A stretch of 64,000 nt of DNA from positions 13,592,935 to 13,656,934 of the forward strand of contig NC_058338.1 in NCBI RefSeq assembly GCF_905475395.1. Direction: 5' to 3'. The stretch's first letter is position 1. Each line of letters opens with the position of its first letter. The notes under the pieces are model-generated. The model saw only the letters and a program-made list of their open reading frames with translations, did not search any database and was not told the origin of the DNA. Both the position numbers and the translations under genes were made by a program. The stretch comes from Chrysoperla carnea. Taxonomy: Eukaryota; Arthropoda; Insecta; Neuroptera; Chrysopidae. Shown one piece after another: positions 16,101-48,610 of the stretch.

Positions 16101-19100
16101 TGGGCCCTTCTTTTCAGCTGTGATGTCAGTTTTTCGCTAGCTATCACTTATATCCTTAATTCCGCGACCAGACTCCAAATTCTAGAAACCTATTAGAGCT
16201 AGGTTAATTGTTAATGTGATATGACTCTCCTCAATTTTGCCTTTACTCTTATGTAAAATACTATCAGTATAAGAATTTTCATCAAAATCATTTGAGCCAA
16301 TCCCGATATATTTAAGGCGCAACCTATATAATTGCCACCAGCGCTATGTACCCTCGTTACGGCCCTGATTTAAAGGTCTGTTAAATAAATCGACAAATTT
16401 TTCATTGTTTCTGTGTTAAAATTTGCTTTAGAGATGTTTAGTCTCTTCAGTAAAATGAGTGGTCATATAATCCTCTATATCTGTTGGAAGAGATAATTCG
16501 AGAGAAAGAGTATGCGGAATAGGACCAGGTGATGAGCCATAATTTTTGTTTTGGAATAACATTTGACCTGAGAGATTGACCTAATATATGGACTTTACTA
16601 AATCTCCTATTAAAAGATTTAGATGGTTTTGGAAGTCTCACAATATAAAATTTCCTACTAAGTATCAAAAACGACAAGCACCTATCTGTTAATAAGTAGC
16701 ACAGAAGCTTTGATCTTTGAGACTAAAAAGAATTCTACTGAACCCTCATTTTATGTGACTTGATTAAACATTTAATCATATTTTCTTACATGAAAATATC
16801 GATTCGAATCAACAGTTTTAGTAACCTTTTTCGTTTATATAACATGAAAGCTTTATATGAAAGCTTTATATATTTTACTTGACTGCAGCTGTGAATGTAT
16901 AGATGCTATTAACTTCTATAATGAGAGTTGCATTTAAATTAAACAAATTAAGAGGCCATTAAGTTTCTCTAATCAATAACAGAGGTTTTTACTTCTCCGG
17001 GTGTTTGCTTTTCTTAAATTTGAGGTTATAGTGTAATAAACGTTGGAAATTTATCCACCAGCTTATTACTAACGCTGCGATTTTAAGGAAGTTCAAACCA
17101 AATAGAGTAACTTTTTTTATTTGGTCTGATAGAAAAAACATATTCTTGGTATAAACCTGCGATTATCGAAACATAATGAAGGCAGGAAGATTCTATTAAA
17201 TATGCAAAATTTTGCTTGATTACCAGAACGAATGTGGCTAAAAAGAATTTCTGGTTTTTTTTTTTGTCTAACTTGGTGCCGACGAATCCAATCCCTAATC
17301 TAAAGAAAGGATGTTCTAATGGGAAGGAGCTATCTTATAGGCAATGACGCAAAAGCTTAAAGTGTCTTTGACAAAACTACACCCTTGTTGGATGATTCTA
17401 CATGTTTCTACGGAAAAAAAATCTATGGTAGACGCCTTGCACGCTTTCAAAACAACCAGGGATTATCTATATTTCCGTACTGTATCTAATTAGTTTTAAA
17501 CGGCCATGGTTAAGTCTATTATTAGCCACACAAAATTTATGATTTCCAATGCTATATAAACAATTCCAGCACCCAAGGAGGATTTAACATACCTACATCT
17601 TACGGGATTCCTAGTAGTCTCAACCGAGAGGAATCTTAAAGACGATTTGCTGGTTCCTGTAGACTTTAATAAAGCAACGATTTCAGCGAATTAAATCATA
17701 TAAAGAGTATCCCTGGAAGGCCTGGAAAGAATAAATGATTTCAATTTTTCTTTTGATTATTTTCAAATGTATTGCGTTTCATTGTAAAAATACTGTGTTT
17801 CGTAATAAAAATAGAAAAATTTTTAAAACGGATAAAAATGTTTTGCTGTTTTTGGTAAATTTTGAAAATTTTGGATTAAGGTTCATGCAAACTTGATAAG
17901 CGCATACTTAATCAATTTTTTTGTAAAAGTATGCTAAATCTTCCGTCGGCACCATCTTGTTCCAATAAGCTTGGGAAAGTTATCATTTTTTTGTGCTAAA
18001 GAAACTTTTATCAGCTTGTAACTATGAAAAGCAATATTTGCAAAAATATATTCAGAGGTAGGTAGTATGCCTATGCACTTATGTATTCAAGAGAAATCTG
18101 TTGTTCAGTATCATTAAAGCTCTCGATATCAACTGATACAGCGTAACTATCTATATATAATTAGCGTCATACTAAAGTTTATTTTAGGTTTGCCATTAGA
18201 GAATCAATTAAACCTTTTTGAATAATGTAGGAATAATTGCATTTATAACGAATATAAAAGGACCTTCATCAATTTATCTGCAAAATTATAACAATTTAAT
18301 TTATTTTATGACTGTACACTCGTATTAAGAAACTGTGATCCAACTCGAAATGTACGAAGGCGCATTATTGTGGTCAATACAACCAAAAATCTAAGTTGCA
18401 TTTATTTGACATGTTGAAAAAGAAGTACTTTTACGCCTTATGATTTTGTTTCTCCTTATTATTAAGTCCAGTCGAAGTTGACTTCTCAGAAAAAGATTGT
18501 CTTCATTTTGATTTTATCCTTAAAATGAGACTTGGAAGTAATATTATCTTTTATAATGTAAATTATGTAACTCGTTTTGTTAAAGAATTGAAATCATCTA
18601 TCCAGCTCCCGTAATAAAAAATTACAGCTCCCGTAATAAAAATCTATCAATAGAGACCTTTTTTTAGTTTTAATTTCTTTATGCCTTAAAACCTGTAGAA
18701 TCGCGTTGGTTGTTCGGGGGAAGTTCTTCAGTTCGTCTTGAGTTCGTCTATAAGAACGTGAAATGGGTAAATTCATCAAAAAGCACTGTTCTTAATCACC
18801 AGAATATATCGTTACAAACAAACTTGCTTTATTTTGTTTAGGTACGAAAATTTACTGTAAAAATTGCTGTACAATGGTCGTCTCTTTTGAAGTTCAACCA
18901 CAAGTCTGTCTATAATGACTCGATATACTGTCATTCTGTAAAATGTCAATATCAACGGACTTATTTTTTGCATACTTACACAATTAACTTTATGTTGATT
19001 AAAAACTTTCACGCGCCAAGGTTAGGTTAGGTTATATTGGCTGTCCACGAAGGACACACTTAGGCTAAAGAGCCTATTGTGATACCATATATGTGTTTTC

Positions 19101-22100
19101 ACTTTTCCGCTGATAATTTCATTTATCAGCTCTTCAATTTCAATGGCTGAGTGCACCTCCTTCATGCATATACCATGCACTACACCATCCCATCACAACT
19201 ATTAATTAAATTAATTTTGTTGCGACGGCGGGAATCGAGCCCGCTACCCTAAGCATACCGCGGGTGGAATTGGTTACGCCTTAACCAATTGAGTTAATAG
19301 GGCGTTGTGATTACGAGAAGTTCGGCGTTCATTGTTCAAATACCTTTGGGTTCATTTTTGTTGAACAATAGTGTATATAAGTATGGTATCAGATCAAAAC
19401 TTTCCTGAATGACTTTTATCACTTACAATTCATATAAATAAATACACATGTATGTATCCATTTATGATTTATAAAATGGGGACTTAATATTTGATTGTAT
19501 AATTAAGTAATAGCTTTATTCCTATAATATTTTACATTCATTCATTCATTTATTTAGTCACAGCAGTAATTTGTGTTTGGTGTTGACTCTGATTTATTAT
19601 ATACAATATACCTACAATGCAGCAACAACTACAAAATTATTCATTGGGGGTTTCACTGTTTTTGTACTTGTATCGATACGAATGTTATTGTTATTGTTAG
19701 TATTGTCGCGGTCAAATTCATTAGGTATGTATGTATGTATGTATGTGTTTAGTTTTGTACAGTATTAAACACCGTTTAATCAACGTGGTTGTTTAAATCG
19801 ATTTATTTATAAACCTACAGGCTTATGTTTAAAAAAAACACGCGAATTCCAATAGTTGCACCCCTTTTCATCATATCATTCTATGTCCACAAAACGAGAG
19901 ATTATATTTTCATACAAATGGGAAAGTGATGTACCTTGGAGCACAATTAACTTTAAATATATGGTGAAGACGATGAGCTTTCTAGAAACGGTACAATATG
20001 CTGCCAAAGACAAGCTTCAATAAATCTCCGGGAATTCCATTCGCGAACTGCAAGTTGCACCTCAAAGAGGATATCTTAAAAAAGGCCAATCTTAGATGGA
20101 GAGGGAACGTATCTTGTGGTACTACAAGACAGATATGGTCTTAGTACAATCTTAGGCGTTTCGAAGATCTTATATCTCTTGCGGCTATTACAGGACCCTG
20201 GTTGCGCCTGACAGTATATCACGACTACTGCAGGAGCTGTCAGAGTGGTGAAGAGGAGGAGACAATGTCTCATCTTCTCTGTCACTGCCCAGCTCTTGCC
20301 ATGAGGAGATGGACTTACTTCAGATAGCCTCTCTTTGACGACCTCTCCGACGTAAAGTCCGTCAACGTCAAAGCACTCTTGCTGTTCTTAAACAGTTCCA
20401 AATGGTTCATGTAGTAGTGGCCCTAAATCCCTAAAAACTAAAAAGCCCTAAATCCCTAACAACATGTTCAAGCAATTAGTTTTCATGCGTATATGTGTGT
20501 AGCGAAATTTTTTCAAACGAAAAAATCATTCACATTTCCTTCATAGATTGTGCATTATACAGATTAGTAAATAATGCACATGAGCTTTGAAATTCAACCA
20601 ATAAATATGCAGTTAAGACCCCTGACCAGGGACCTTATTATTCGTCTTTCAAGTCTTTAAAGACTTTGATGTAATACACAAATCTACAGCAAAACCGAAT
20701 GTCAATGGAAAAAGATCTATGAATTGCAGGAAATCTATTCAGTTGTAGTAACATGTTTCAAATAATAGTTTAAAAATAAAATATTTCCCGTCTATATCTT
20801 ACGCCTTAAAAAATTTAATTATAAAAGGTAGGCACATTACAATTGCCAATGATCTAAGTACGAGTTGCATATCTTGTCAAAATTTGAACTTAATCAATGC
20901 GAAACTTTTTTAGTTTTTGAAGCATACGCAAACGAACCTAACATTTATATATAATTTTTCCTTTTTTGATGAACTATATTTTTTTCTTTTTTTGATAAAC
21001 TGTTTACAGTTGGCCATCAATTCCTCTAAATAATATGAGCGGTGGGAGTAGAGCATGTAGTAGTCGATTGGGTGGTGGTGACCCATTACTGCCATCACCA
21101 GCTTCCCCAACAGCAGTAATTGTATCACCAGAAACCTTAAGTCATCATTCATCATCGTCACCAGCACGACGTCCATTATCCTCAGCTGGTAGCACAACAC
21201 ATCATCATCAAAAGCAACAAAGTGGTAGCAACCGATTTAGTGGAATAAGCGTTGGTGGTGTCACGCCATCGTGTTCGCATCATCATGTGTCATTATCTTC
21301 ACCCATCAGGTAATTTCCTTTTACATGTATACAATTTACCCAAAACAAACTAGGTACTTTGGTAAATGAAAACGATGTACAAAATTAGGAAAGTTAAACT
21401 TGCTACTCTGGCAAATTAAGATCAAACAAAGTTCGTGCCTTATTTGTACGATACGTACTATAGTACGATGCTATCACTTTATAGATTTTCATACCCCATG
21501 GGTGTAAGCCTTAGTCCGCCATCTTATGCCAAGCTGACGTTCTTTCCTCTACGAAATTTTATAAACGGAGAGTTCTCATTCAATTGCCTGAAAATTTTTG
21601 AATTTTTGCTCGCCAAGAATAGGACACAATTCAAATAACCACATAATTGAATAATAACAAATTCAAAACTCATTTTTCCGATTTTATTAAGGCATTAATA
21701 TGCCCTATTCAGCTTCAATCCTTCTCCGTAACGAAGGTCTGTGGCAAAAATCAGGTTTGGAAACGAGTCTTATTCTACTCAGGGAATCTATTCATTTTGC
21801 TCGATAGATTCGGATATGATTTTAGTAGACTTTGGGATATTTTCATGAAAAATAGGTTTAATAAAACTTTAAATTCGAAAATAAATTTAATTTTAATTAA
21901 ATTTATTTTATTCTCATTCTACTGACTCGGTAAAAATATATCTTCTCACTAAAAGAGGTCAAATAAAAAAAGCTGTAAAAGGAATGAAATATACTTCGAT
22001 ATTTATTGTGATAAAATAAATTGTTTCTGGATGGGTAAATTGGTTTTTATTTCTTGAACCAATTTCTAAAGTACATAATAAACTTTACGATTATATGTCA

Positions 22101-25100
22101 ACTACAGATGTATGTATCTACAGTGTGTTAAAGATTCATATATGTATTGATATAATTGTTAATTCCATACACATGCGTGACACACCCTGTACATTGATTG
22201 GTTTCTTTATTTTACAGACAGCACGGTGACAGTAGCAATATAAGTAGTAGCCGTGGTGGAATGAATACAACGGATGAAGCGAGTAAAACAGGAAGGGATG
22301 CTGTAAGTCATCATCATCATACACGGCGTACACAACAAAAACAAAAAGCTGGCCCCCTTGCAATAGCACCCTTAAGTTTTCAACATCATCATGTTGGCGG
22401 TCTTCAACTTCCTGCACTAAGACGACCCTCTCGTGTTGAACGCCAGACTGAATGGAAACAACTTGGCGCGTAAGTTTTTATAGTTTTCTCTAACTCTACA
22501 TATCATTTTTTTTTTAGTCATTCGTTTGCTTCATTCTATCTCATCTTTATAACACTTATCTCTGTGACTCTTGTGTCTACTTTAAAACTTATACAGTCGT
22601 ATATAAATGAATGACACTTATTAATATACTGACTGTTCCTACAATTTTTTTACAGGATTGCAAATAATAAACCTTTCTTTCAGTTTTTTAAATTTGGAAT
22701 ATTCTGGGTGATTAGAAATAACTACCTAAATATAAAACGTTTTAAATGATCTTTAACACGTTTTCATTAGCTTGACCATGAAGTATCAATATAATGGTAC
22801 TTTTTAATTCAGTTTTCACTCCCAGTCATTTTTCCCATTTTTCCCATACCTTTTTTTATCGTTTATCGAAAGTAGGCATATCAATGAGTCAGTGAACCAA
22901 AACCGAACTCTATAAGGGTAGTTTTAAGAGAAACCGCAGTTAAAAATTTCGCTTTTTTCTAAATTTAAATTAAACAATCTCTAGATCTATCCGACCGATT
23001 TATCCGATTTTTCAATAGAATGCACAGTTTAGCCAGAAATCGCGTAAAACTATTTTCAACCCCTGAAAAACCCACTTCTTTCCAACTCGGATAGCTGGTG
23101 TCAATTTAATTTCTTTTTACTTTTTTACATGAGCTTGTTCGACAATTTTCCTGTCAGATTGGTGCAACCAATTTTGTTGGTTGTTGCTCAGACCCCATTT
23201 CTCCCAATTTGGTACAGATCTTTTTTACTGTATTCATATCATCTTCATTTAAATCTAGACTAACTGCGATTTTTTAAAGCAGGTTTTTTAAAGAGTTTCG
23301 AGCACTTAACTCGGGATTAAAGTATTCACTTAAATAACCTCATATTACCCCTTTATTTCTGAGAATGTTTTATATGGATTGCAATTATGGAATGCCCAAG
23401 CTCTAAAACTATTAAATATTAACCTTCGACACGGCGAACCTTATTTTTATTATTAAATGGCAATAAAAATGTTCTGCCGCGGTGGACTGATTTTCTGTTT
23501 ATGTAATTTTACAGTCAACAGTTTACTCGATATACAAAATTTATGATTTAGAAGATTTTTAAATCATGGTGGCATCCTGTACTTATTTTTTATTCTTTTT
23601 GTTTTGAATCTTTCGCTTTTTTACCTTTAGAAACAATTAAGTAATAAAGTGTAGATAGAAAATTGTTAATTTTCTTTTAATACCTTAAAACATGCTTGTC
23701 GAGTTTTTCACAAAGTATATTTACTCCCCTTTCGTTTTTAACTCAATGAATTGCATATCTATTCATTATTTCTGCACAAAGAGGCATAAAATTAAACATT
23801 TCAATCGTTACAGACTTTTGAAGAGATGTCAATGATAGTATATATCGCTGACTTTTTTCTTTGAATTTCAGTGATGCGTTAGCAACAACATTATCCGCTT
23901 TGTATGGGAAATTATTAGTTGTAATGGGAACTGCATTTCCAATGGCTGAAGTTATATCAACTTATATACCACCATCTTTTTATGAGGTATTTAAACATAT
24001 CAAAGTTTTTATTCTTAATAATTTTCGACATAAAACCTGGCTTGTTGATTTTCCATTAAGTTGAAATTGTTTAATAATATAATAATGTGTTGATATAATC
24101 AAGTATGTAAAACGTGAGTGACTAGTAAAACCATGCTTGTAGATATGCAGCTTACTAGCAACTCTTTGTTGGTTTAGTAAAGGGTAAACTTTTTATCAAT
24201 CTCTCCTATTTTGAAATTATAAAATTATAGGTCGATATGTCGACATCACCTACCAAATTTCTTCTCGAACTTTATACTGTCAAGAATTAGCAGGTGGCAA
24301 TGCATAAAAAATATCTATATTATTTTTATTGGAAATATAATGCATTTTTTACCATACCACTCGCCTGGTGAACGTTACACGCCTGCATCCCTCTTTGGTA
24401 TCTTCTGGACTCTCCTTATTTGTCTTACTCCTTCAATCTCGAAAGAAATTTAATCAAATAGGTGGTATCACAAATTTCAAAACAAAATAAGCCCCTATGC
24501 AAGTCAAAGTACCATGTAGAAAGCACCTAGAAATCAAATAGTATTTCTAACTTTTCTAATTTACTGTCGTAAAAAAGACTCTTATATAAATCAAATGTCC
24601 TGTAAATGAGATAAAGCTTCATATTCTTACATTCTAGTGTCTAGAATCGTTCATGGTTTCTAGAACGCCTACATTTAGCAGATACGATTATATCAACCAC
24701 GTGTAAGGTTTATCTTCAATTATAACTTAGGCTAATTCATTCAGGCTTTTTTCTATTTTAGTGGTATTATTTATATTTGTACATTGGAAGTATGTTGTTT
24801 CTATTATACATGTATACGATGCTATTAACGGAGAAAAAGAACAGGAAAAAAGCAAGTAAGTAATTCTAACGAATCCAGAATAGCATTTATGAAATGCTTA
24901 GGATTTAAGAAAATAATTTTAAGTGGAATTTTATCCTCCACAATTTTTATAATAAATGTAAACAAGCAAAAGAAACGAGATATTCTCATAAAACGACATT
25001 TGACCTTGGATATCTAAGGACGCTGGCCATATGTGACTTTTGAGACAACATTTATACTATCAAAATAAAGCTTTGTACAAGTATTTAGCTTCTTCCGTTA

Positions 25101-27064
25101 GATTCCGAGGTGAAATCCTGAGATGATTAGACTATTTAACAAAAAAAGGGAAAAATTACCGTATTAGTTAAAGGTATTAATACATTTAGTAAATGTAAGT
25201 ACAAATGTGTAAAATTTTTTTAGATTTTCTTTGAAATAGGCTATAAATTCCCTATGTTATCGGGTAAGTTTGAAAAAGAAAGAACCAGCAATTAAATTAA
25301 AAATTTTTTTAAGGAATGAAAAGTAATTTAGCAGCTAAAGAACTTTCAATTAGTGATAGTGGTGAAGAATCAGGCACAGCAACGTCCAGTAAACAATCCG
25401 ATGATTCCGGTAGTACAACCTCGGATAGTCGATATCGTGTCGCTGTGAATGCAACAAGACGATTATCATTTTTAATGACCCAACCTCACCAGTACCATTA
25501 TGGAAGCTTTTATTTACGAATGGGTGCAGTAGGTAATGGGTGACTTAAATTTGCATCTTAAGAAAAATTTGAATAAAAATTTTGTTCTTTTAGCTTTTGG
25601 AATTGGAAGTATGATCTATTCAGGTTTAGAATTTGGACAGTATTTTGAATTGGAACGGAATACAAAGTGTCATAATGTTATGTTAGCTTTAACGCCAGCA
25701 ACTCGAATGGCATTTATTTTTATACAAATGTATTTCATTTTCTTAACTAATGAGGTTTGTGTTTATTATCGATTTTGGATTTAGCGAAAAGTATTTATTT
25801 TTATTTGTTTGTAGCAAATGAAGGTTTATAAACATAAAATAACTGCCCGATTTGGATTGATGCATATGATTGGAACAAATTTATCAGTATGGTTAAATGT
25901 ACTCGTCCAAGAAACTAAACATGAAATTTTAACTTTCTACAATCCAGAAAATAATTCTTTACGAATATCACATCGGTTAGGTACGTAAAGTTTGGCTCTC
26001 GAAATGTTTCGCCTCTAAAAGAAAGTTCTTAAAAATTGTCATTTACAGGTTCCAAAGTCTTACATTTCAGTGGTCGTGAGGGTGGAGGCCATGGTCATGG
26101 CGAACAATTAGCATTAACTGCCACACATCATATAGTCGCACGAGGTTTAAAAGGCCCCCATGCAATATACGAATGTCGTCGTACAAACATAATTGGATCA
26201 TTGGTTCAAGATGCCTCACCATTTCTATTTCCTTGTACGATTGAGTACAGTTTAATCTGTGCAGCAATTCTGTACGTAATGTGGAAAAATATCAGTAAAC
26301 AACCAAAACAAATTAGTATCATCGATATTAAATCTACAAATGATGGTTTAGCTTATAAAAAATCACCCCATCACTATTCCGTAGATTGTGCTCGCGCACA
26401 TAAAGGTCTATTCGTTGGTATATTAATCCTAGTCTTAACAATTATATCGCTAATATTATTTTTTGTATTAATATCACGACCAGAATTTGTAAATTTAGCC
26501 GTAATGGAAGTGAATATTTGTGAGTTAACATTGTACGGTGTTAGTACATTGGCGAGCTTAATTGGTATGTTTCAAGTACGGGTACTTAAATACGATGGAG
26601 GTCGTAATTTGGAATTAGATAATATTTTATTAATTGGTGCCCAAACTGGGATGTTTATTTACAGTATGTTTACGATTATTGGTGGACAATTTACAATTGA
26701 AAAAAATACGATTTTAGTTGTAATAACAGCCCTAACGTCCTTAGTACAAACTACATTTCAAACGATGTTTATATTAGACGCATCACGACGCTCGTGTGTT
26801 ACACCAGATCAAATACGACGTAAACCAGGACGTGAAATTGTAACATTTTTATTGGTAACAAATTTAGCAATGTGGGCAATATCAACGTTAGAAAAATCTC
26901 GAGCAGAATCACACCCAATACAATTGCATTTTTATGGCTTATGGGCATGGACAATAATTACCCATGTGTCAATGCCTTTGGCAATATTTTATCGTTTTCA
27001 TTCGACTGTTTGTTTATGTGAAATTTGGAAGCGGGCCTATAAAATGAAGCCTACTTATATGTAA
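13160..27064 (+). CDS. Otop: Otopetrin proton channel (OtopLa-like)
   Basis: A multi-pass proton-selective channel of the plasma membrane; insect relatives act in acid sensing (family knowledge). Coding exons: 13160-13392, 21010-21309, 22218-22469, 23872-23986, 24762-24855, 25314-25532, 25594-25754, 25815-25980, 26049-27064. They total 2556 nt, or 851 aa, with every junction in frame. Residues 1 to about 261 are a cytosolic low-complexity tail rich in Ser and His (runs HHHH), with YMDFAQGIDSDIED and WPSIPLNN as recognisable islands. I count 12 hydrophobic helices, five before the last exon and seven within it, as expected for two otopetrin domains. Typical blocks are LYGKLLVVMGTAFPMAEVIS, FYLRMGAVAFGIGSMIYSGLE and MPLAIFYRFHSTVCL. 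A Ser/Asp-rich loop lies between helices 2 and 3. A possible AATAAA is at 27704-27709. Confidence 0.95.
13806..14160. repeat. Inverted and direct repeat cluster in otopetrin intron 1
   Basis: A block reading ACTTTTTGGATCAAAATTAC at about 13815 is repeated inverted at about 13968-13992 and again direct at about 14106. The phrase AAGTTT..TCAAA follows in both orientations. It lies just upstream of the 315-bp satellite, which carries a similar TTGGTTTATCAAAATTGG phrase, so the two may be related. No coding capacity. Confidence 0.6.
14585..16212. repeat. Satellite array, five units of about 315 bp
   Basis: Head-to-tail copies marked by GACTCCACATTCT at 14594, 14909, 15225, 15541, 15856 and (as GACTCCAAATTCT) 16171. 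Spacing is 315-316 bp, and a sixth unit is cut off after TTAGAGCTAGGTTAATT. Every unit contains CTTGGTTTATCAAAATTGG, a TGATGACGTCAT palindrome and TTTTCAGCTGT. Units 4 and 5 are nearly identical and share changes absent from units 1-3 (GGGCCCTTC, CGCGACC), which shows recent duplication. It sits in otopetrin intron 1. No frame stays open across units. Confidence 0.95.
16213..19018. other. Intron 1 sequence of otopetrin without recognised features
   Basis: AT-rich intronic DNA. The small frames at 16447-16677, 18594-18779 and 18812-19012 show no family resemblance, splice context or codon signal. I saw no tRNA or other RNA gene here. Confidence 0.4.
19020..19304 (-). mobile_element. tRNA-derived SINE, copy 1 (family A)
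   Basis: Read on the minus strand, it starts with a tRNA-like head: A-box TAACTCAATTGG and B-box GGCTCGATTCCC. A tRNA-unrelated body follows (GGTGTAGTGCATGGTATATG). The tail GGTATCACAA..GGCTC..TAGCCTAAGTGTGTCC..GGACAGCCA then ends in TAACC repeats. The tail matches the 3' end of LINE family 1 (8016-8355, 48155-48437). A second copy is at 35870-36149. I find no clear target-site duplication here. Confidence 0.82.
19723..19746. repeat. GTAT microsatellite
   Basis: About five tandem GTAT units within otopetrin intron 1. Simple sequence only. Confidence 0.8.
20066..20430 (+). mobile_element. Decayed non-LTR retrotransposon fragment (family 1, copy 2)
   Basis: Plus-strand remnant of the same LINE family as at 8016 and 48155. 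The translated block reads HDYCRSCQSG..ETMSHLLCHCPAL.MRRWTY, the zinc-knuckle region. A stop codon follows shortly after the WTY block and the frame is broken upstream, so it is dead. Sequence from about 19850 may be more of the same element but is too degraded to be sure. It ends near GTAGTGGCC without the TAACC tail. Confidence 0.8.
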
Positions 27065-27164
27065 AACACAATCAGTTAGATATTTAGTATAGTCTAAGCA
27101 ACAAGTTCAAATTGGTAAAATATAGAAATAATGTCCCACTTTCCGAAACTCCTGAAAGTTTATC

Positions 27165-27295
27165 TGCATTAGGGAGCGTCCATAAACCACGTAGCCTGGT
27201 CAAGAGGGAGGGGGGTGAGTTTGAATGCTACGCTGAACCACGTAACGGGTGGGAGGAGGTAAGACAAGAGCTATCACATGTATTTTTTGACCATT
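27165..27295. repeat. Fragment of a dispersed repeat after otopetrin
   Basis: About 100 bp past the otopetrin stop, TTAGGGAGCGTCCATAAACCAC is followed by a G-rich run and ACCACGTAACGGGTGGGAGG. From memory this resembles the start of MITE-like repeats common in insects (GGGNCCGTCCATAAA type); I cannot confirm this. If the otopetrin transcript extends this far, it is part of the 3' UTR. Confidence 0.4.
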
Positions 27296-29224
27296 ATTTC
27301 TATATTTCATCAACACGAACTAAAACGAACTTGTTGACTAGACTATATAATCATTTAACTCCTGACTTTTTGAAAAAATTATCGTATTAGGAAATCAGGG
27401 GAAATCTTTTCGAAACATTTTTTGAATAGGATAAATAGAATTTTTTTATACAAATATGACAATAAAAACTTTTGGTATACAGATATTTGGTAGTTTGAAT
27501 CAACCTATTTTGATAGACAAATGTATTTCTGAAAAAAAAATTTTGCAATATTTAAAAAAGTAGTTTTTCAAAGTGATAAATAATAAGGCTTATAAATCCC
27601 CTAAATCCAACCCCAAATTTTAAATGACTTTGGAGTTTATAATATGGTAAGATGGTAAAACGCTTGCTACAAGAATTCAGGAGACTGACTGAAGAAAAAT
27701 ACAAATAAATTGAAAGATCGAGAATAGTTTATGATATTGAAACGTTAGTTTTGTATTAATAGAAAAATCGTGTACTTCTAGCAATAAATTACCGTTGACT
27801 AAAATATTTTACTGCCAAATACGTAAACACTTTTGAAGTGCAAAGTATCTCGAAGAAGTAATTTTGATTTTACGAGTAAAAAATCATTTCGATTTGAATA
27901 ATGCTCATTGTAAAGCTTTCAACGCTCGAATTATACATATGAAAGCACAAAATAAAGAATTAAAATTATATTTTTGTTTTCTAAAATTTTTATTTTAAGC
28001 TCAAAAAAAAAATATGGTGTTTATCATAAGATGTGATATTGCATAAGATATTATATTACCTCATATCCTCCATTCAAAGGAAAAATATAATAAATGTCTA
28101 ATTTCTATGGAAAATTTAATATATTTTGGTGAAAAATTTTTTAAAGATACTCAAAAAATTAAGATATTACTTATAAATTGTTTTCATAATGGTTTCATTT
28201 TTATTGAGTTCGGTTCGAAATGAAACTATTTTTTTAGAAAATTTTAATTGAAAAATATAATCAAAGAAAGTAAAAATGAGCTCCGTAAAAAAAGCACCCT
28301 GAAATGTAAATTTTCTCAAAATTCTGATAAGATTCATTTAACATTTGTCCACCCAAAATTTTCGAAATTGGGCGAAAATGGAAACCAAAGTTTTGCCCTA
28401 ATTTGCGACTTCATGAAAAAACAATGATATTTACGAAAAAATGTTTCAAGCAAAAGTTTATATACTTAAATTTTTGTTCTATATCTTACAATTCAGAAGT
28501 GGTGCCTACTGCATGACCCAATTGACCCATGTTGGGCATTTGCGAAATGAAATAGACTTGCACTCGCTCCAATTTGTTTGTAGCATCAAATTTTCTAGTC
28601 GCGACCCACTTAAGGTAGTTGCTCCGCAATTGCAATATATTAAGAAATTTACAAAACTTGGAGCACAAGTAATTAAATGCATAGTTCACTCCATGTTAAA
28701 ATTTGAAGACGATTTACTAAACTATGAGGCATCACCATATGAGGCTAACTATGAGGCAACTAAACTATGAGGAACCTTGAAGAGTTCCTTTAAGCTCAAA
28801 AAAGTATTCAATTTGAATGAAGTTTTTTGAAGTAATATCTGAATGGCAGCATTAGAAAAGTCTTCCACTTGAATACGCTGACGGAAGTTAATACTAATAT
28901 AGGGAAAACATAGTTTCCACGAATTATTTTAGAAATTTGGAAATAGAAATTTTTCCTGCTCTGCGATAGATTTTTCATTTTATTTTTTGCGTTTGCGTAT
29001 CTTTAATTAATATGTTCACCAAATTTACCTAACTTTTATAAAAAAAAAAATGTAATTATTTATATAATTAGCCTAGAATAATGATATACAAAATTTCGAT
29101 TATATTAATGAGTATTTTCTATACCAATTAAAATTTTAAAAATAAAAATCATTTCAAAAATATTATATTTAAATAGCTCTTTATCATTATTAAAATAGTT
29201 TTGTCAGTTCATCACCTTCATTAA
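27296..29224. other. Intergenic region, otopetrin to MITE
   Basis: AT-rich DNA with no recognisable gene. A short stretch near 28505-28545 (CCCAATTGACCCATGTTGGGCATTT) resembles one at 50888-50915, so both may be fragments of one repeat. The frame 28441-28770 looks like chance. Confidence 0.4.
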
Positions 29225-29401
29225 GGCGCAATTCCACTGAGGCAACACGTAGCCTGTGGCATTGAATTATAGAGGGAAAACAAAGCGACAAAAATATGTC
29301 TCCCAACACGTAGCATGTTGTCGCACGCCCACAGTAAACAACACTTGACAACAAATATCGAGCCACATGTCGCCCAGTGTTGCGTCAGTGGAATTGCGCC
29401 T
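29225..29401. mobile_element. MITE with TTAA target duplication (piggyBac-like)
   Basis: A 177-bp non-coding element. Its inverted termini GGCGCAATTCCACTGA and TCAGTGGAATTGCGCC match perfectly, and TTAA flanks it on both sides (29221-29224 and 29402-29405). TTAA duplication is the signature of piggyBac-type transposases. The core has another repeat pair, CAACACGTAGC at two places. Perfect termini suggest recent mobility. Confidence 0.88.
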
Positions 29402-30369
29402 TTAACAAGAACATATTCATGTTAAATGGGAACAATATTTCGTAGATGTTTAGATAAAACCATAGCAAATTTTTTAAATACCTTCATATATAAAAACTTA
29501 CAAAAAGATTATACGATCAGTTTAATAAATTTTTATCAATTTAATAAATAACAAAAAAGTCTTATACCTGTGCCATAGAACAAAATCAATTTGCCTTTTT
29601 TTGTTGGTGTTATAAAGATAAAAAAAACCTGCTTTGTTTAGTAAATGTCAGTCGAATACATCGTTTGTCAACGTTTTAAGCCGATCACTGGATCTTAAGG
29701 TTCTAAATTAAAATTATTTTTACAATTGCTATTATAAATCAGTAACCTTGTTGCCTGAAGAACAGGGTAGTCTGCATCAAATCCGGTAGTTTTGATTTTT
29801 CAATGTATGATACTGATGATGACTACTTGGTAGTCGAAATACAAAAATTGATCTAGGAAATTGGGACAAAATCAAAATTTATTTATACCGTTCTAACTGT
29901 TATAGCTATAATATTATATGTGAATTACATGTACTGCTATTAATATCACTTAGAATGGTTCATTCAGTTTTTGCGTTCATTATGACTTTCTATATCCATT
30001 AAAAGGTTGATAATCGTTGATAGAATGATGGGATTGACTTTGTTAAAGTATTTATTTTCAAATGGATGTAAAATGTAATCTTTAAAATTTAAGAAGTTTA
30101 AATATAATTTACATGCCCACAAAAAAATAAATTATGCTAAAAAACATTTTACAAAACCATATTTTAAAATATTATTGTTAAATTTGTATTAATTAATCAA
30201 ATAAATCAGTTTTATTAAAATATAATTATTAAGAAAAGAAACAGGAAAGGAAAATTGCTTAGTTTAGATTCACCAGAATTAATAAATATGAAAATTATGG
30301 TATTCATTTTGATTAAATAAAGAATCGATAATTATGCAGTACCGCTTCACATATGTTTGGCAGGAATCT

Positions 30370-30930
30370 CTGAATAAAGAAGATAAACATATTTGACGAT
30401 TGACTAAAATTATTTTTTACTTGATTGAAAACGTAATATAAAATTTTGTTTCTACCAAAAAAAGCAGTTAAAATGAATGGAAAAACCACTTTTCTTAATA
30501 ATTACTAAAAATATGTACAAAAATTGCGCTTATTTATTTAAATTGATTTTCTTTGTAAATAATTTTTATTGATCCATAAATATTTATAAATTTTTAGGTT
30601 TATTATGTGTTACAATTGCTTAGAATTTTATTGTAAATATTAATAAAAAAACTAAAAAGAAAATATTTCCACAACAAAAAACCAAAACCCTGAAACACTC
30701 AAACATTCAGTATGAAGTTAATTATAGATATTTTCAAATGTTGTATAATCAGTCTCTTTAGGGTAAATTTTCTAATAGTTCCTATATACATTTTTGTCCA
30801 TTCGATTACGCTTCCATTTTCATCTCGAACCTTTTGGAAGGGAACTATCTTTTTGGGATCGAGATTATTGAGGCTGATTACGTTTATTTCAGAGTACATT
30901 CATTTAATTTATAGGGGCTTAAAAATTTTG
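30370..30930. other. Intergenic region, no recognised feature
   Basis: Contains overlapping frames on both strands at 30699-31035, without family resemblance or splice signals. I see no gene here. Confidence 0.35.
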
Positions 30931-30984
30931 GGCGATCACGACCATTTTTGTGTTATATTTAAAGTTACAAAAAATTACTTTCTT

Positions 30985-31235
30985 GTTATTTATAGGCAAT
31001 TTTATTGCAATTATGATAAACAAATTACATACTGAACAAAATTAAATCTTTATATTATCATTCTAGCCTGTTTTTTTCCTAAGCGATACATTTTGAGATC
31101 GTGAGTCTATTTTTTGTAATTAGCCAGCCTGTTAAGCCTTAAAATGAACGGTAAATCCTGGAAATTGATAAAGGAACAAGGGAGATCTCGTGATGTGACA
31201 GACAATCAGGCTAGATAAATAATATATAAGATAAT
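30985..31235. repeat. Dispersed repeat D, copy 1
   Basis: Blocks TATAGGCAATTT..ATT and TTACATA.TGAACAAA are followed by a terminal-like TCTAGCCTG (31065), then TTAAAATGA..GTAAATC and GATAAAGGAA.AAGG, ending CAGGCTAGATAAATAATATATAAGATAA. The same order occurs at 40329-41180, where a fold-back MITE interrupts it. TCTAGCCTG and CAGGCTAGA form an inverted pair about 150 bp apart. Confidence 0.6.
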
Positions 31236-31804
31236 GATGACGTGTTTTTTCCTTATCGTTGTTAATTTCATACTGAAATCACCAATAGAAAAACTTATAA
31301 TGCTGTATTTGCCATACGAAAAATATATTAATAATTTTAGATATATTTAATATTTATTTGTTATTATTTAAATAAAATAGTTATTATTAATTAATTAATT
31401 ATTATGAATGTGTTGATTGTATTTGTTATGTGAATTTATGAGTTATGAATCAAAAAACGCTGAAAATTTTTTTCTTAATTAATTTATTGTTAAAAAAAAA
31501 CGTTTGCCAAAAAATTTACATGATCATTATTAAAATAATTTATTCACCATTTTTCCAAAATTACTGACAAATAATTTATATAAACTGTATTAAAGACTTT
31601 TATTAATAATAACATTATCATTCGAAATCGTGTCTTATTACCGTTGAACCTTAGTCAAGGTGTTACCCCTGATTAAAAGAGAGTATTGTTACCCACGATT
31701 AAAAGAGATTTTGAGAATTTTATCGTTACTGTGTAAATTAAACAATCTTTCTTGAGAAAAATGCGCTGAAAATCTATTTCACGAACTTTTACAAAACGCT
31801 TTAA

Positions 31805-32095
31805 AAACACGGTTCCTATATGCTGTATCTCATAGGAACCGTGCATTTTTCCGGGATAAAAATTAGCTTATGTCTTTTTCTGTCTCCTAAACTCTCTCTA
31901 CCGTTGCAAAAAATCACGGAAACTGTACATTTTACCGGGATAAAAAGCCTAAGTGCTATTTCAGATTATAATCTATCTCTGTGCCAAATTTCATCCAAAT
32001 CCGTTCGGTAGTTTTTGCATTAAAGAGTAACAAACACCCATCCATCTATCTATCGATTCAAACTTTCACGATTGTAATAAATATCAGATTAGAAT
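31805..32095 (+). mobile_element. 3' end of a dispersed non-LTR-type repeat
   Basis: Blocks include GGAACCGTGCATTTTTCCGG, GGGATAAAAAGCCTA, CCAAATTTCATCCAAATCCG, GTTCGGTAGTTTTTGC, AGTAACAAACA with a CATC run, and ACTTTC..TTGTAATAA. This arrangement is, from memory, that of a 3' tail found in many arthropod non-LTR elements. The end GAGTAACAAACA..ACTTTC resembles that of the element at 57119-57535. A 12-bp perfect hairpin, CACGGTTCCTAT / ATAGGAACCGTG, lies at 31808-31843. Confidence 0.6.
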
Positions 32096-32377
32096 TATTG
32101 GAAAAAGGTATAGAAATGATTTGATTAAACTAGACCTTCAGAGGTCATGATGGGATAGCTATTATATTTTCCTGTAATGTCCCTTTTATTATTACACTGC
32201 ATTTTATGTCACTTTCCTCTTACAGGCTAGATAATTTGTCTATCACGTACGTGATCACGCTGCACTCCAATTGGGCCACAGTATGTGGTCGCCTAGCTTG
32301 CCTAATGATTGTTTCTGCCTCTAATAGAAGACTTACAAAATAAAGTAAAGAAAAAACAAAGAGTATTTAAATCATAT

Positions 32378-32383
32378 TTTATT
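32378..32383 (-). other. Polyadenylation signal of alpha-mannosidase
   Basis: AATAAA on the minus strand, about 13 nt past the stop codon of the mannosidase gene. It is the only canonical signal this close, which implies a very short 3' UTR. Confidence 0.6.
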
Positions 32384-32395
32384 TACAAAAATAAT

Positions 32396-35300
32396 TTAAT
32401 AGAAAGTTCTTTTTACATCTAAAACAAATGTTCGAATTTGCATTGCATTTAATACAATATCAAATTTATTATTTCCATTCTCTGAACATTTGTAGTTTTG
32501 GGAGATTGAAGTTTTAGTTTCACCACTAGAAATGAAACCCTGTGTTTTCCATTTTAATCGTTTTTTGTCTTCAATCCACTGATTTGCATCCAAAGTAGTT
32601 TCCTTTAAGTTTTGAACTTGGAATTGCTTGAATAAGTTCTAGAAATATAAGTTAAATTAGTTTAAGTTTTCTTAAAAAAAATGTATGTTTCATACCTCAA
32701 TGTTAACGCAAGCTGATTGAGATAAATTTGGATCGTCAGTTTTTTCTAAAATATGCTCTAAACGTAATAGTATTGTTCCATCTTTCCATGGTTCCAAAGT
32801 TAATATTTGTACATTTGAGGGAAATGATTCAGGGTCATTAATTCCTGATAACTACGAAACACAATTTTTAGTCTTATTGTTAGTTAAAGCATTCGATTTG
32901 ATCAAAATATGAAATAATACTTACTTCCACGGAATTGAGTGAGTTCAAATCTAAGGATTTAATATTTTCGGTATTGGCTACAAATATTAACGGTGCTAAA
33001 ATCTTTTGAGATGCAATTTGGCGTTCTTCGAAAGCAGCCGATGGTGCTACAAAAATAAAAATTACAAAGTAGTCCTTAGTCACCTTAGTGGTGTTTGGAT
33101 GTTTGAACTGAACATTTCTGCTCAAAAAGAACCAAGGTCGTCCATAGTACAAGGGGGTCGACCCCCATCGTCTCCTGTACTAGGAGAATCGAAAATAATA
33201 CACAAATACACCAGGAATCGAGCCAAGGTCTCTTGGATTCATGCCAAGGATCGTTCTAACTCGACCAATATTATGCTTTAAGTGAATGTACAAATTTTTC
33301 AACTCAAAGACGAATTTTACTTGTTGTCAACATTGCTGCTTTATAGAGAATTTTGTTATGCTTACAAGTATTACTACTGCTAAATATATAATGAGTTCCT
33401 TTAACTACCAGTCCATTTTGCCCTGTTTTGGTTTCAAATTCAGTCTCATTTAATGCTTCACCCACGCCAAAATAATCATCATGCAATAAACGGCGATGGA
33501 CCATTAATTCAACTTGACCATCTTCTAAACTGGATCCACCTTGAGCGCGATCAGTCAATACTGCAAATCTAGTATTATTTTCAGTTAAGACAATCCGTGA
33601 TGTTATTGGATAATAATTAGCGGAAACTGGTTCATCTACATTTAGTTCCCATGTATCACGATGGTCCTTTACACGGCGTAATAGTTCACGGCCATTAGAA
33701 TCTGTGTAGAAGGTTTTGTTTGTCTTAAGATCTGTCTGGAATCGATTGATAACTTCTTTCCCTTTGCCATCACTGTAACATTTTTAATTATTTTTTTTAA
33801 ATATAAAATTATATTTTACTGATAATTTTAAATAGTTTACCCAACAAACTACTTAAAAAAAAACAAGTGAAAATAAAAAATTGACTGAGAAAATTGTTGA
33901 AATACCCTATATAGATAGTGTGGTTTATAATTAAGAAACTTAAGGAAACCAAAGATGCTTTCAGTCTGACTTCGGATTTCGACTTCATAGCAAATATGCT
34001 ATAGATATTAAGGTTTATTTCCAGATAAGTTCAGGGGTACAAATGGAAAAGCCAAAATTGGTTTCTAATCGTAAACATACAAGTTGAAAAACTTACTCAA
34101 TTGGAATGGGTCCAACAATCCAATCAAATTCGATATAGTTCAAATTCTTGTAGATTCGCACGTCAGAATAAGCCCATTCGCCAACTTTTTGATGAATTTC
34201 TTCTACAAGTGGTCCTTTGTATGTTTGGCTGCTAGTCACTTCAAATGGTGTAGGTGTATTAGATTCTGGTCGAAAGACATATGCCCCTGAGGGATTCGGA
34301 CCATTTGGTTGGTAAGCACCTTCATAAAATAATAGCTGTTGACTAAAATTTAAATTTTCTGCCTTGAAGTGTAATCTTTGATTGTCATCTGAAATGATTC
34401 ATTGAGAGTAATATTATAATCTGAAGGTTTGTAATATAAGTAAAAATTTTTATATTACCTTCATCTACATAAATTTCCAAATGGTCATTACCAATTCTGT
34501 TTTCAACGATTTTCTGACTCAAGTGAGAGGATTTTTTAGAACTTTCCTTTGTAATTTGATAAACTTTGTGACCAAGTGGGGGAATTTTGGATGCAAGGAA
34601 GATTAATTCTTGTTTTGCTTCACTTACACGACCAGGAAGATTTAATACTCCTTCTGATATTGGAATAATTTGATTTTCGACTATGTTTCCTTTAAAGCAT
34701 TAATTTATTACGATTAATATTTGTTAAAACTTGATATATAATAATTAATTAAAATAGTACCTTCATTGTCTTTAACACTATAAGATTCTCCAGTGACTGG
34801 CAAACGAACATATTTGTCAGCCGGATGACTACTTGGATTATAAATTACAGTTACGAATTTTCTAGAAGTTTCCGTAACATCACAAACACTAATGTTCAAT
34901 GGACATTGTTTTAATTCCAAATTTGATGCAGTTGTGGACTCCTTCGAGATCAATAATTTACTGCAACATTAGATTTGCTAATTAAAAATAGTTTTTATCT
35001 ACGTTGCCAGGCCACTTTCGCCGGTAGAGATTAATTTGGTCCACGTCCGGGTTGGAATATTTGGTACTATTTTACAGCCAAGTAAATAGTTTTCAGTACG
35101 TAATATGCTTTAAGACAAAATTTGGCACAGCTGTAAATCTTTATTGGCTATAAAAAGTGATTTGGCGCCTTTTTTAAATATGTATTTATTTATTAACTCA
35201 CTTCAAACTTTTAGAAATAATTTGTTCACATTGGTTAATGGCTTTAGATAATTGTCTCACGTAATCCTTTGTCACATGCTGTTTTTCAGTTCCAGTGATA

Positions 35301-38300
35301 GCGTCGTGATGTTGAAATACACCCATAACCTCTCTTAACGCTATTAAATTTTCATCAGAATCAGAAGCTGAATCGGTAGTTGCCGCTAATTGTTTACAAA
35401 CCTATACATTTTTATGTGTAAACAAACAAAAAATTAAAATGCGCTACAAATTCATCAATTTGTAAGCTACTTTAATTAGTACAATAAAATATTTAGTTTT
35501 TAAGAAATGCAAAGACCATCTTATGTATGCCGTACAAACAGGAATTTTTCCCCTTTAATTTTTGAATTCTTCTTGTTTTTGAGGCAAGCAAAAATAATTA
35601 AGCGATTAAAATTTGGAGCACATACTTGAAGATTATTATTTCCTTCTCGTTCCAGAAATTTTGTTGTTGGTCTAGAAGAGAAATATCCTGTCCAATAAGA
35701 GTGATCTCCACTTGAATATGGGAAAAAGTCATCCGTTTTCGTAGACCATGTTTCGTTTGCATCATGAACTCTTTGCAAATAACAAGCAGGTGTTGAATAA
35801 AAAGCATTAATTTTATCTCCATAAAGTTCATTTACGTAACTGTAAATAAAAACAAATAAATGTTAACAATGAGAATATTGGCTGTCCACGAAGGACACAC
35901 TTAGGCTATTGAGCCCATTGCGATACAATATATGTGTTTTACCACCTTTCCGCTTATTATTTCATTTAGAAGCTAAGTGCACCTCCTTCATGCATATACC
36001 ATGCACTACACCAGCCCATCGCAACTATTAATTAAATTAGTTTTTGTTGCGACGGTGGGAATTGAATCCGCTCACCTGGGCATACCGCGGACGGAATTGG
36101 TTACGCATTAACCAACTGAGCTACGTGAGCGACCTAACCTAACCTAACCTAACAATAATAACATGGAGGAAAAAGGGGAACTTTCTAAAACGCATGGGAA
36201 AAATTTCTATGTTGACATAGAATAATTAACAGTTAGACATAGGAATAATCTAGTGTAAATATACCTAATAACAAGCCGTGGATAGAGTCTGGCGCGACCC
36301 TTGAGATCCACTTCTCAGTATAAAAAAAAAGTTAAAAGAAATAAAAGCTTGCTCGACTCGAAGGGGTTCGACCGAATGTTATGAAATTCTTTTCGAATCA
36401 TATTGCTTTTAATGCGCATCGATTGACACCTCAACGAAGCCTGTATCATTTTTAAGAAAGTATCAAAATATAAGAAAGAGCTCAACAGCTTAGATAGGTA
36501 GCTTTAAATAAAATCAGAACACAGAAATAGTTAGATCGGTGTTTTATAAAAAAAAAGTAAAATAATTAATATGATTAATCAACTTACTGTATCAATTTAT
36601 CTATATTTTTGTACCACCAATGAGCTGCTGAGTATTGAAAATCATCACCCATTTTTATCAATATATTATTAGTTTTAAAATACTTCGCTTCACCTTGGCA
36701 ATGTTCAACAAATGCTCGTATCTAACACAAAAAAAGTTTAACTTTGATTAATGGTTAAAATTATAAGTTTCATTGGAAACAGATGAGACAACCAAATAGT
36801 AAGGAAACCCAAAATTTCAACAATTTACTGTGAATGGTTTTGATACATTCGTTCATACATGATACGTGTAATTGCCACCCTAAAACTTATCAAAATGAAT
36901 TCAAGGATCTGACCTGATCGATTCACGATTACAACTTTAAGTGTATTCATACTCAGAGTTGTATCGGATATAATAACTTTGATTGATTCAAAAGTAGCCA
37001 TTAAAATTCTTCGTAATTAAAACTATAGAACAGGATGATAGAAAGAATATATTACAAGCAGTTTTAAAACTTTGACCGGCGGTCATTTTCCTATCAAAAC
37101 GAGCGTTTATCTATTAAAAAAGGGACTACTATTATAGTAGAAAAATTATACAACCAACCCTATCTGGAACATTATAATCTGGACTATTTTTATCATCAAT
37201 AATTGGATCGTCACCACCATTCACATCCCAATTAAAACCTCCAGGAGGACTATAATGACCCGTAAAAGCACCCGTAAATAAATCAGATTCTTCACCTGCA
37301 ACAATTGACATATTTTATATTAATAGAATACCTTTTTTTTAAGATTAAGTAAATTTTACCTAAACTAGCACTTCCCCGCCAAATCATTTCTAAAGTCTTA
37401 TCATTCTTTCTTTTGTCTCTGTCTGCATGATCCAACCGCGCAAAAAAGACTCCATCAAAACCTATTTGTGCGAAAATTGAAGCCATTTCACGACTGTGGC
37501 CAAATGGATCAATTTGCCATCCTACTTTAGGACGACCACATACACCAAATGTGTCATTTATGCGTCGAAGTCCCCATGCGAAATTGTCAATTATTGAATG
37601 ATAATGTGTAGCGGCTTCATCGTTCATACTCCAAGCTCCGCCAGTAATTTCAAGTTGATTGGTATTAACCAATTGTTTAACTAGGTCACGGGTTTCTTCA
37701 TTTTGCTCTACCCACCACTTCCAGAAAAATGCAGTTTCAACTTGAATGAACCTACAAAATAATGTGATGTAATGGAAAAATGTGGAATATAAGTTGATAA
37801 AAATTTTTTCTTACTTTCGATCCTTGTTTGCTGACAACTCACGAGTTACCGAATCTAGAATATATTGAACAGTAGCTCTTTGGATATCAGTACGTGCTAC
37901 AAAAAAAAACAATGTATCAAGGAGGAGTATATTCCGTTAATTTTGTGTTAAAGATAAATATACTGAATCACACTTCTACATTTTTTCAGTATAAGTTATT
38001 GAACTAACCGCTGGGAAATTATTATTTAATTAATTTTGCGCGTTTTTCAATCGAACTTTTCTATCTTCATACAATTTTATCTTTCAAGCCCTTCAGAGAG
38101 TGTGAGAATTTCTCTCTTCAAGATGTAAGCAAAAAATATTACCTTCGGAACTTTTCGGACCTGTTGTACTTTCATTAGTTTACGGATATTTGGCTCTGTA
38201 CGTTATAAATTTTTGAAATTTATTTGTCAAAAATATTACAATGTCATATTATTATTGTGATAAGATTATGAGATATCCAACAATAATTATCTAAGAAAGT

Positions 38301-44469: not shown

Positions 44470-44950
44470 GCAAGTGGGTCCCTAGCACCTAGCCTGTCAC
44501 CTAGCACCGAAGACGAGGCGTCTTCGAATAGGAGGTGCTATTAAAATGAAGCTAAAGGATTCTGCCGAGGCCAGGCGCCACACAGAAAGCCCACAGCTTC
44601 TCCGTCGAGATCTCTCCGAGGATAGATGAATCCAAGGTTTCGAACCCGAACATTCTGAATCTAACGCCCTGCTTATGCCTGGGGGTGCAAATAACATGTA
44701 TAGAAGTTTCGTCATCCTCCATACAGGCTTTACAAGGGGGGGGGTCATTAGAGATCCCCATATTATGAAGGTGATAGTGTCCTGTCAAGAGTCCCACCGT
44801 CCTTCTCAACAGTACTCTAGCAAGTTTCAGGCGAGCAGAGTCGAATAGCCTAGCTGTGGTTAATCACAGTTTGGCCTGTCACATGCTTGCGTCAAGTCGC
44901 AATAATCAAGATGGGCTTGTCCTAGCCACTCTTTGATTTTCCCAGAGTTA
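44470..44950 (-). mobile_element. Non-LTR retrotransposon fragment (family 2)
   Basis: The minus strand encodes RRTVGLLTGHYHLHNMGI, then CKAC..DDETSIHVICTPRHK, the RNase H tail and zinc-knuckle region of a Jockey-superfamily LINE (R1/Jockey/LOA-like). Its GLLTGH..L motif and knuckle differ from family 1, so it is a second family. The frame is open for about 85 codons, then decays: upstream, in three frames, there are stop codons. A stretch of TAGCACCTAGCCTG and TCACCTAGCACC repeats marks the 3' side near 44487-44510. Confidence 0.82.
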
Positions 44951-48111: not shown

Positions 48112-48610
48112 CCTTCACAACACATTATTGCTCTTCTAGTAATTGAAGATCTAGGTTAGGTTAGGTTAGAGTGGCTGTCCTGGAATGGGATACACGTAGA
48201 CCATAGGGTCCATTGTGATACCGAAAAAGGGTTGGCCTATCCCCGGCCACTACTTCATGAACCATTTGAAGCTGTTTAAGAACAGCAGGAGTGCTTTGAC
48301 ATCGACGGACTTTACGTCGGAGAGGTCGTCAAAGAGAGGCTTGCTCAAATAAGTTCATCTCCTCATGGCAAGAGCTGGACAGTGACAGAGAATATGAGAC
48401 ATAGTTTCCTCCTCCTGACCACTCTGACAGCTCCTGCGAAGATCTAGCTCTCTGAAGAGTATTTTGGTTCTCTAGTATGGAAGCAAATGCTGCCATACCC
48501 AGAATACATCAGAGATATTATGGCTGTAGTTGTATCCATACGACACGATTCAGATACTCTTTAGAGAGCTACTCCTTCAATTACTAGAAAAGCAATTATA
48601 TGTTGTGAAG
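48112..48610. repeat. Fold-back element interrupted by a LINE
   Basis: Left arm CTTCACAACA..ATTGCTCTTCTAGTAATTGAAG (48113-48146) is inverted at 48573-48610. Inner arms AGCTCTCTGAAGAGTAT (48446-48462) and ATACTCTTTAGAGAGCT (48554-48570) pair too. The LINE at 48155-48437 splits the left arm. A 6+2 bp hairpin, GTATGG..GC / GC..CCATAC, lies at about 48475-48499 in the loop. Confidence 0.75.
48155..48437 (-). mobile_element. 5'-truncated non-LTR retrotransposon (family 1, copy 3)
   Basis: Minus-strand LINE fragment with a perfect 10-bp duplication GAAGATCTAG (48145-48154 and 48438-48447). It matches 8016-8355 closely, including the tail GTTAGGTTAGGTTAGAGTGG (plus strand), GTGATACCGAAAAA and the zinc-knuckle block near 48400-48437. 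It is shorter at the 5' end than copy 1. Confidence 0.88.

Follow-up and report, generated by a model that had tools for sequence, protein, structure and literature searches.

The window analysed here, i.e. the whole stretch of 64,000 nucleotides from contig NC_058338.1 of the lacewing Chrysoperla carnea (positions 13,592,935 to 13,656,934 of the forward strand), contains copies of two retroelement families, a short interspersed element (SINE) with a tRNA-like head and a long interspersed element (LINE), which have a similar 3' tail followed by TAACC repeats. It is very probable, judging from the sequences compared below, that these families form a stringent-type SINE/LINE pair, in which the SINE would use the machinery of the LINE via a double-hairpin tail and (UAACC)n. 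Two LINE and two SINE copies of interest are present, all on the minus strand (Table 1), as given with correct coordinates in a preliminary description of the window, and all four TTAGG/CCTAA runs of at least two units in the window sit at these elements. Both SINE copies had been described as carrying the LINE-type tail blocks, which is true of SINE copy A (19020); however, the tail block of SINE copy B (35870) is GTATCGCAA and not GGTATCACAA. Copy B has a tRNA-like head, but it lacks the 3' TAACC run and its CCTAA run lies inverted at the 5' (tRNA) end, within the TAACAAT duplication, and it is thus an atypical exception rather than an example of the family. Copy A has no clear target duplication, the longest word shared across its insertion being 6 bp.

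Table 1. Positions of the LINE and SINE copies in the window, with their target duplications, repeat runs and tail hairpins.
Feature	Position	Strand	Length	Remarks
LINE copy A	8016..8355	-		5'-truncated; end of RNase H-type open reading frame, 3' untranslated region with two hairpins, (TAACC)3
LINE copy A, target duplication	8004-8015 / 8356-8367		12 bp	TAAGATGAAGAC in LINE sense
LINE copy A, (TAACC)3 tail	8016..8030	-
LINE copy B	48155..48437	-		5'-truncated; 3' end as in copy A
LINE copy B, target duplication	48145-48154 / 48438-48447		10 bp
LINE copy B, (TAACC)3 tail	48155..48169	-
LINE copy C	20206..20422	+		stops just past the stop codon of the open reading frame; no shared tail, no TAACC run
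SINE copy A	19020..~19306	-		tRNA-like head (A and B boxes), body, LINE-like tail, TAACC run
SINE copy A, TAACC run of 3' tail	19020..19034	-
SINE copy A, tail hairpin 1	19057..19081	-		CAC..GTG closing stem, AGGCU/AGCCU inner stem
SINE copy A, tail hairpin 2	19042..19056	-		UGUCC/GGACA stem, UUCGU loop
SINE copy B	35871..36149	-		no TAACC run after the tail; repeat run at 5' end, inverted
SINE copy B, short duplication	35864-35870 / 36150-36156			TAACAAT
SINE copy B, GGTTAGG run upstream of tRNA-like head	36133..36149	-		inverted relative to the normal tail

Within the window, the tail of SINE copy A matches those of the two LINE copies with 78.6% identity over 70 bp (E 8.6e-11) and 76.5% over 81 bp (E 3.5e-12), and copy B gave no match to the LINE tails at the threshold that matched copy A. 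The comparison was extended to the whole assembly (inChrCarn1.1, 559 Mb, 337 contigs). The SINE query returned 1638 first-look candidates, the best 40 of which were scored together with one weak piece, and the LINE query returned 3713, of which the best 40 were scored; 30 copies were fetched for each. Identity to the window copy was 80-89% for the scored SINE matches and 93-95% for the scored LINE matches. The samples comprised 31 SINE copies and 31 tailed LINE copies, the tail-less LINE copy at 20206 not being one of the latter. Twenty-nine of each entered the tail alignment, after omission of SINE copies L028 and L029 (weak tail anchor) and LINE copies L174 and L176 (shifted anchor). The two consensus tails are identical in 48 of 62 aligned columns, and in 43 of 54 from GGTATCACAA onward; their local score is 31.5, compared with a maximum of 12.5 among 2000 shuffles. 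At least one TAACC follows the shared block in 27 of the 31 SINE copies, so the LINE-like tail is carried by most of the sampled SINEs. Five longer LINE copies, none reaching the LINE 5' end, were read in their upstream parts as well as at the 3' terminus, and each of the five has the same tail there. A common 3' tail of the SINE and the LINE is therefore supported by many copies, by the compensated hairpin described below, and by the longer LINE copies. An exact 17-mer of the LINE end had no match in viral contigs, and a scan of bacterial genomes with CCTAACCTAACCTAACC gave chance matches which were not used.

The tails of both families are able to fold into two hairpins. In hairpin 1 the loop CUAU (DNA CTAT) is the same in the SINE and LINE consensus, and all four differences between the families at paired columns of the stem constitute two compensated pairs (GC/AU, UA/CG). 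The pairs changed on both sides are 30-42 (AU 26, GC 26) and 32-40 (UA 28, CG 23). Hairpin 2 has the stem UGUCC/GGACA in both families, with differing loops, these being UUCGU in the SINE and CACCCCA in the LINE. Paired cells amount to 96.2% versus 92.8% in shuffled alignments (0 of 500 shuffles as high; 17-43% in slid controls), and the covariation score lies above all 500 shuffles. A conserved 3' stem-loop, as in a stringent-type pair, is thus present, with hairpin 1 compensated and its loop identical. By sequence comparison, the evidence for hairpin 1 appears good but not strong, and that for hairpin 2 appears weaker.

The TAACC run lies directly behind this tail. At least two units occur in the 25 nt that follow the shared block in 29 of 31 LINE copies and in 22 of 31 SINE copies; at a control position of +200, at least two units occur in none of the 31 LINE copies and at least one unit in one of the 31 SINE copies. 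Across the genome, 2377 exact SINE tail anchors were counted and 1191 are directly followed by exact AACCTAACC, with none for the reversed-pattern control; degenerate repeats after the tail are common among the sampled SINE copies. Copies of both families insert into unique sequences, which are duplicated on both sides. Words of at least 8 bp are shared across the insertion in 21 of 31 LINE copies (4.1% in shuffled pairings) and 14 of 31 SINE copies (3.3%). Since the TAACC run lies inside these target duplications, and since the target sites differ, the repeat belongs to the elements, as had been proposed. For the starts of the duplications, 18 of the 21 LINE words were kept (L154 and L168 lay elsewhere than at the end of the tail; L176 duplicates L160), as were 13 of the 14 SINE words (L028 was dropped). 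Eighteen of these 31 begin with TA, the frequency of which is 0.103 in the flanks. Because the word search extends maximally leftward, the TA represents microhomology with the next tail unit, as would be expected if a nicked end ...TA-3' paired with UAA in the tail.

The LINE family has the marks of such an element, i.e. a reverse transcriptase (RT) domain, 5' truncation, and target duplications. The point of 5' truncation varies among the sampled copies, with similarity ending between 268 and ~700 nt from the 3' end. Of the longer copies, L227 and L229 reach RT sequence as judged by eye; a 113-amino acid piece of L229 matches Pfam RVT_1 (E 5.4e-14), and the 3' end of this copy (L231) carries the common tail. 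A typed composite of several LINE copies matches Pfam RNase_H (E 9e-15). LOA-like (Lian/LOA) insect LINEs have an RT followed by an RNase H and a C-terminal Cys-rich block. By the wording of its motifs, the present LINE is a candidate member of this clade. After LINE copy C, which was absent from the preliminary description, a CCCTAAATCCCTAA-like sequence stands in place of the usual tail (region 20206-20460). A second LINE family is represented at 44552-44920 (minus strand) by a C-terminal Cys-rich block; it has 1086 first-look candidates genome-wide, and this copy is without a TAACC tail.

The SINE is ~260-290 bp long and non-coding, with 907 exact heads genome-wide. A and B boxes (at most two mismatches each, spacing 43-58 nt) are present in 29 of the 31 copies. 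Since ARAGORN found no tRNA in the window or in the 22 loci tested, the designation as tRNA-headed rests on these boxes. The features of a tRNA-derived SINE are found, namely RNA polymerase III boxes (A and B) close to the 5' end, short length with high copy number, and target duplications. An inverted TTAGG run at the 5' end, as in SINE copy B, occurs in two of the 31 sampled copies (36133-36149 of the window, and L003), and TTAGGTTAGG directly upstream of an exact SINE head occurs in four of 907 cases genome-wide. At a guess, such a run may have arisen through priming of the second strand of the target on the tail, in a manner similar to twin priming. In two further SINE copies, L237 and L238, part of the body is absent and the hairpin 1 stem is of the LINE type; they are possibly members of an older SINE subfamily.

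Common tail and repeat, compensated pairs, duplications with their TA bias, variable 5' truncation of the LINE, and RT and RNase H domains are features read directly from the copies. A proposed mechanism can be potentially described as follows. The LINE RT most likely recognises the double hairpin at the RNA 3' end (the CUAU loop of hairpin 1 and the UGUCC/GGACA stem of hairpin 2), and copying would begin within (UAACC)n, immediately after the hairpins. The nicked target strand frequently ends in TA-3' or TTA-3' and would anneal to UA(A) in the tail; the new copy would then start with the repeat and lie between duplications of ~9-15 bp, many of them with TA as their first letters. RNA of the SINE, made from its tRNA-like promoter, would carry a copy of the tail and so be copied in trans. 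The TTAGG-like look would be a property of a short tandem tail, with no telomere function. We infer three parts of this scheme: the recognition of RNA by protein, the trans use by the SINE, and the base pairing at the nick. The suggestion that the shared tail is the sign of a SINE using the RT of its partner LINE is well supported by these comparisons and appears better founded than when it was made.

Several points weigh against this scheme. The sampled copies are biased towards those most similar to the queries, as the best candidates alone were scored. The LINE is known from genomic DNA and in its 3' part up to the RT, the copies read including neither a full-length element nor an endonuclease domain. 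Half of the exact SINE anchors are without exact AACCTAACC directly after them. As for the hairpins, doubly changed pairs (272/500) and further pair types (492/500) are not above shuffles, and the two compensated pairs may represent one or two evolutionary events only. RNAalifold on the same alignment gave eight pairs at -1.6 kcal/mol and did not recover hairpin 2, and single-sequence folds are not significant versus shuffles (z -1.8 to +0.1). Finally, the difference in the loop of hairpin 2 may mean that the LINE subfamily in the window is a close relative of the true partner and not the partner itself.

This last point leads to another explanation, in which the SINE has its true partner in another LINE subfamily, related to that in the window and perhaps older, which would bear a UUCGU loop and a CAATA junction, the window LINE being its sister. 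It is possible, though on balance somewhat unlikely. The SINE and the LINE have different loops in hairpin 2 and different final bases ahead of the repeat, loop-specific recognition has been reported (PMC4176376), and the SINE matches are more diverged than the LINE matches. However, a pattern combining the LINE hairpin 1 with the SINE hairpin 2 had 107 matches at three or fewer mismatches, of which five were read and all were SINEs; moreover, the loop of hairpin 1 and the logic of its stem are common to the SINE and the window LINE.

The remaining alternatives concern the repeat itself. TAACC had been called the insect telomere motif, which is true of many insects but not supported for C. carnea. 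No tandem TTAGG of at least two units was present in the terminal 1.5 kb at the ten of 12 chromosome ends that are readable (the other two read N). Southern blots cited in PMC12564400 reportedly detected no (TTAGG)n in C. carnea. A search with (TTAGG)8 gave 192 overlapping matches; the matches listed (the first 100) form 16 arrays, the nearest of which is 6.6 Mb from a chromosome end. Fifteen of these 16 are tails of the elements described here, 13 adjoining a SINE tail, with three assignments (L215, L220, and L223) resting on short matches of 34-46 bp, and two adjoining a LINE tail. The sole array adjoining neither is L218 (C2:8938361).

A different repeat is placed as a telomere repeat might be. 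With (TTGGG)8, 573 overlapping matches were obtained, and those listed (the first 100) form 40 arrays on C1-C3. In 33 of these 40 the G-strand points outward, and 33 of 40 lie within 10 Mb of an end, some of them being locally clustered and hence not independent. The reversed-pattern control is meaningless for this search, as reversing the motif yields only a rotated form of it. The right end of C3 (L189) has TTGGG runs of 30-65 bp. TERT is present, as a telomerase RNA-binding domain (PF12009, E 5.2e-13) was found at C4:16343644-16344015 (plus strand) within an open frame of 714 amino acids. It is likely that (TTGGG)n is the telomere repeat of C. carnea, and the TAACC tail does not match (TTGGG)n. 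A 2025 study (PMC12564400) gives (TTGGG)n for the telomeres of Nineta flava and (TTAGG)n for those of Nothochrysa capitata. At the right end of C1 (L187, 1.5 kb), the assembly stops, by eye, within an apparent RT/RNase H region of another LINE.

A role of the tail in priming at telomeres, which had been left open, finds no support: the listed arrays are internal, the readable ends are without tandem TTAGG, and the placement of (TTGGG)n is telomere-like. One form of the idea takes the tail as a relic from an ancestor with (TTAGG)n telomeres, in which the RNA primed on the overhang or borrowed a telomerase product; the host would then have changed its repeat, probably to TTGGG, while the elements kept the motif and moved to dispersed A+T-rich sites. 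This is very unlikely. Still less credible is that the tail serves, or recently served, in priming on (TTAGG)n telomeres, with the C-rich RNA annealing to the overhang like a telomerase template. The orientation would fit, since (UAACC)n RNA and a 3' overhang of TTAGG are complementary, and the LINE copies most like that in the window are distal, 26 of 40 lying no more than 10 Mb from an end, where 22.8% would be expected; the corresponding figures are 8 of 40 for the SINE matches and 12 of 40 for another, older LINE family. However, this bias is confounded by age, by repeat-rich distal regions, and by the choice of copies on similarity, and the set includes the segmental duplicate L160/L176. 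Moreover, the copies lie within unique duplications and not in TTAGG arrays, the listed arrays and the readable ends speak against such telomeres as do the Southern blots, and TERT is present along with subterminal TTGGG arrays of outward polarity. That the repeat is no part of the elements, both families inserting into pre-existing TTAGG-like microsatellites, can be dismissed almost with certainty: tandem repeats do flank the elements, and that of the SINE at 35870 is on the opposite side, but on the 3' side the repeat is enclosed by the duplications and follows the tail in a constant phase, at the frequencies given above, target sites differ among copies, and every window run of two or more units is at one of these elements.

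The preferred reading, a stringent-type pair, has counterparts elsewhere. In eels, UnaL2 and UnaSINE1 form a stringent LINE/SINE pair with a common 3' stem-loop, with short repeats where the lacewing elements have the pentamer (TAACC)n. In zebrafish, recognition of the stem-loop tail by stringent LINE proteins has been published for ZfL2-1/ZfL2-2 (PMC4176376). The likeness to these pairs extends to a 3' tail common to LINE and SINE, with a stem-loop near the 3' end and then short tandem repeats, and to a compensated stem with a conserved loop, here hairpin 1. The lacewing pair differs in having two hairpins and probably in the LINE clade, and it is known from sequence alone. Among insects, SART/TRAS are non-LTR elements tied to the TTAGG motif, and short pairing of the RNA 3' end with the nicked target has been proposed for SART1; in contrast to the present elements, SART1Bm targets (TTAGG)n arrays and has poly(A) (PMC7265360). 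The lacewing elements occupy dispersed unique sites and have their own C-strand (TAACC)n tail, and neither array insertion nor poly(A) is found. MoTeRs of Magnaporthe are grouped with FoTeRs as telomere-associated retrotransposons. The 3' ends of Fusarium FoTeR are likewise followed by three to eight C-strand telomere-type repeats (TAACCC; PMC12857005); however, these elements sit at chromosome ends and have no definable target duplication. The lacewing elements, unlike FoTeR/MoTeR, are dispersed and have clear duplications, no tail of either family with tandem TTAGG lies in the terminal 1.5 kb of the ten readable ends, and their repeat is unlike the likely telomere repeat of the host. Overall, the lacewing pair adds to a known class of stringent SINE/LINE pairs, with an eye-catching tail. 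A search of the open literature, made largely on listings of papers and with subscription journals and repeat databases outside it, found no description of the lacewing pair or of a TTAGG-tailed SINE/LINE pair.

A natural SINE/LINE pair is thus indicated in Neuroptera, in which the compensated changes point to an RNA element that a LINE protein may read, and the match between the TA-rich nick and the tail is directly testable. Since 15 of the 16 arrays of at least 40 bp among the matches listed are such tails, short TTAGG runs inside insect chromosomes should be viewed with caution, as they may be retroelement tails and not old telomeres or fusion scars. If the tail were after all a relic of an ancestral telomere, retroelement tails would now be the genome's main stock of old telomere sequence. 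For C. carnea itself, (TTGGG)n is a candidate telomere repeat in a species in which, according to the 2025 paper (PMC12564400), no motif at the chromosome ends satisfied the criteria used.

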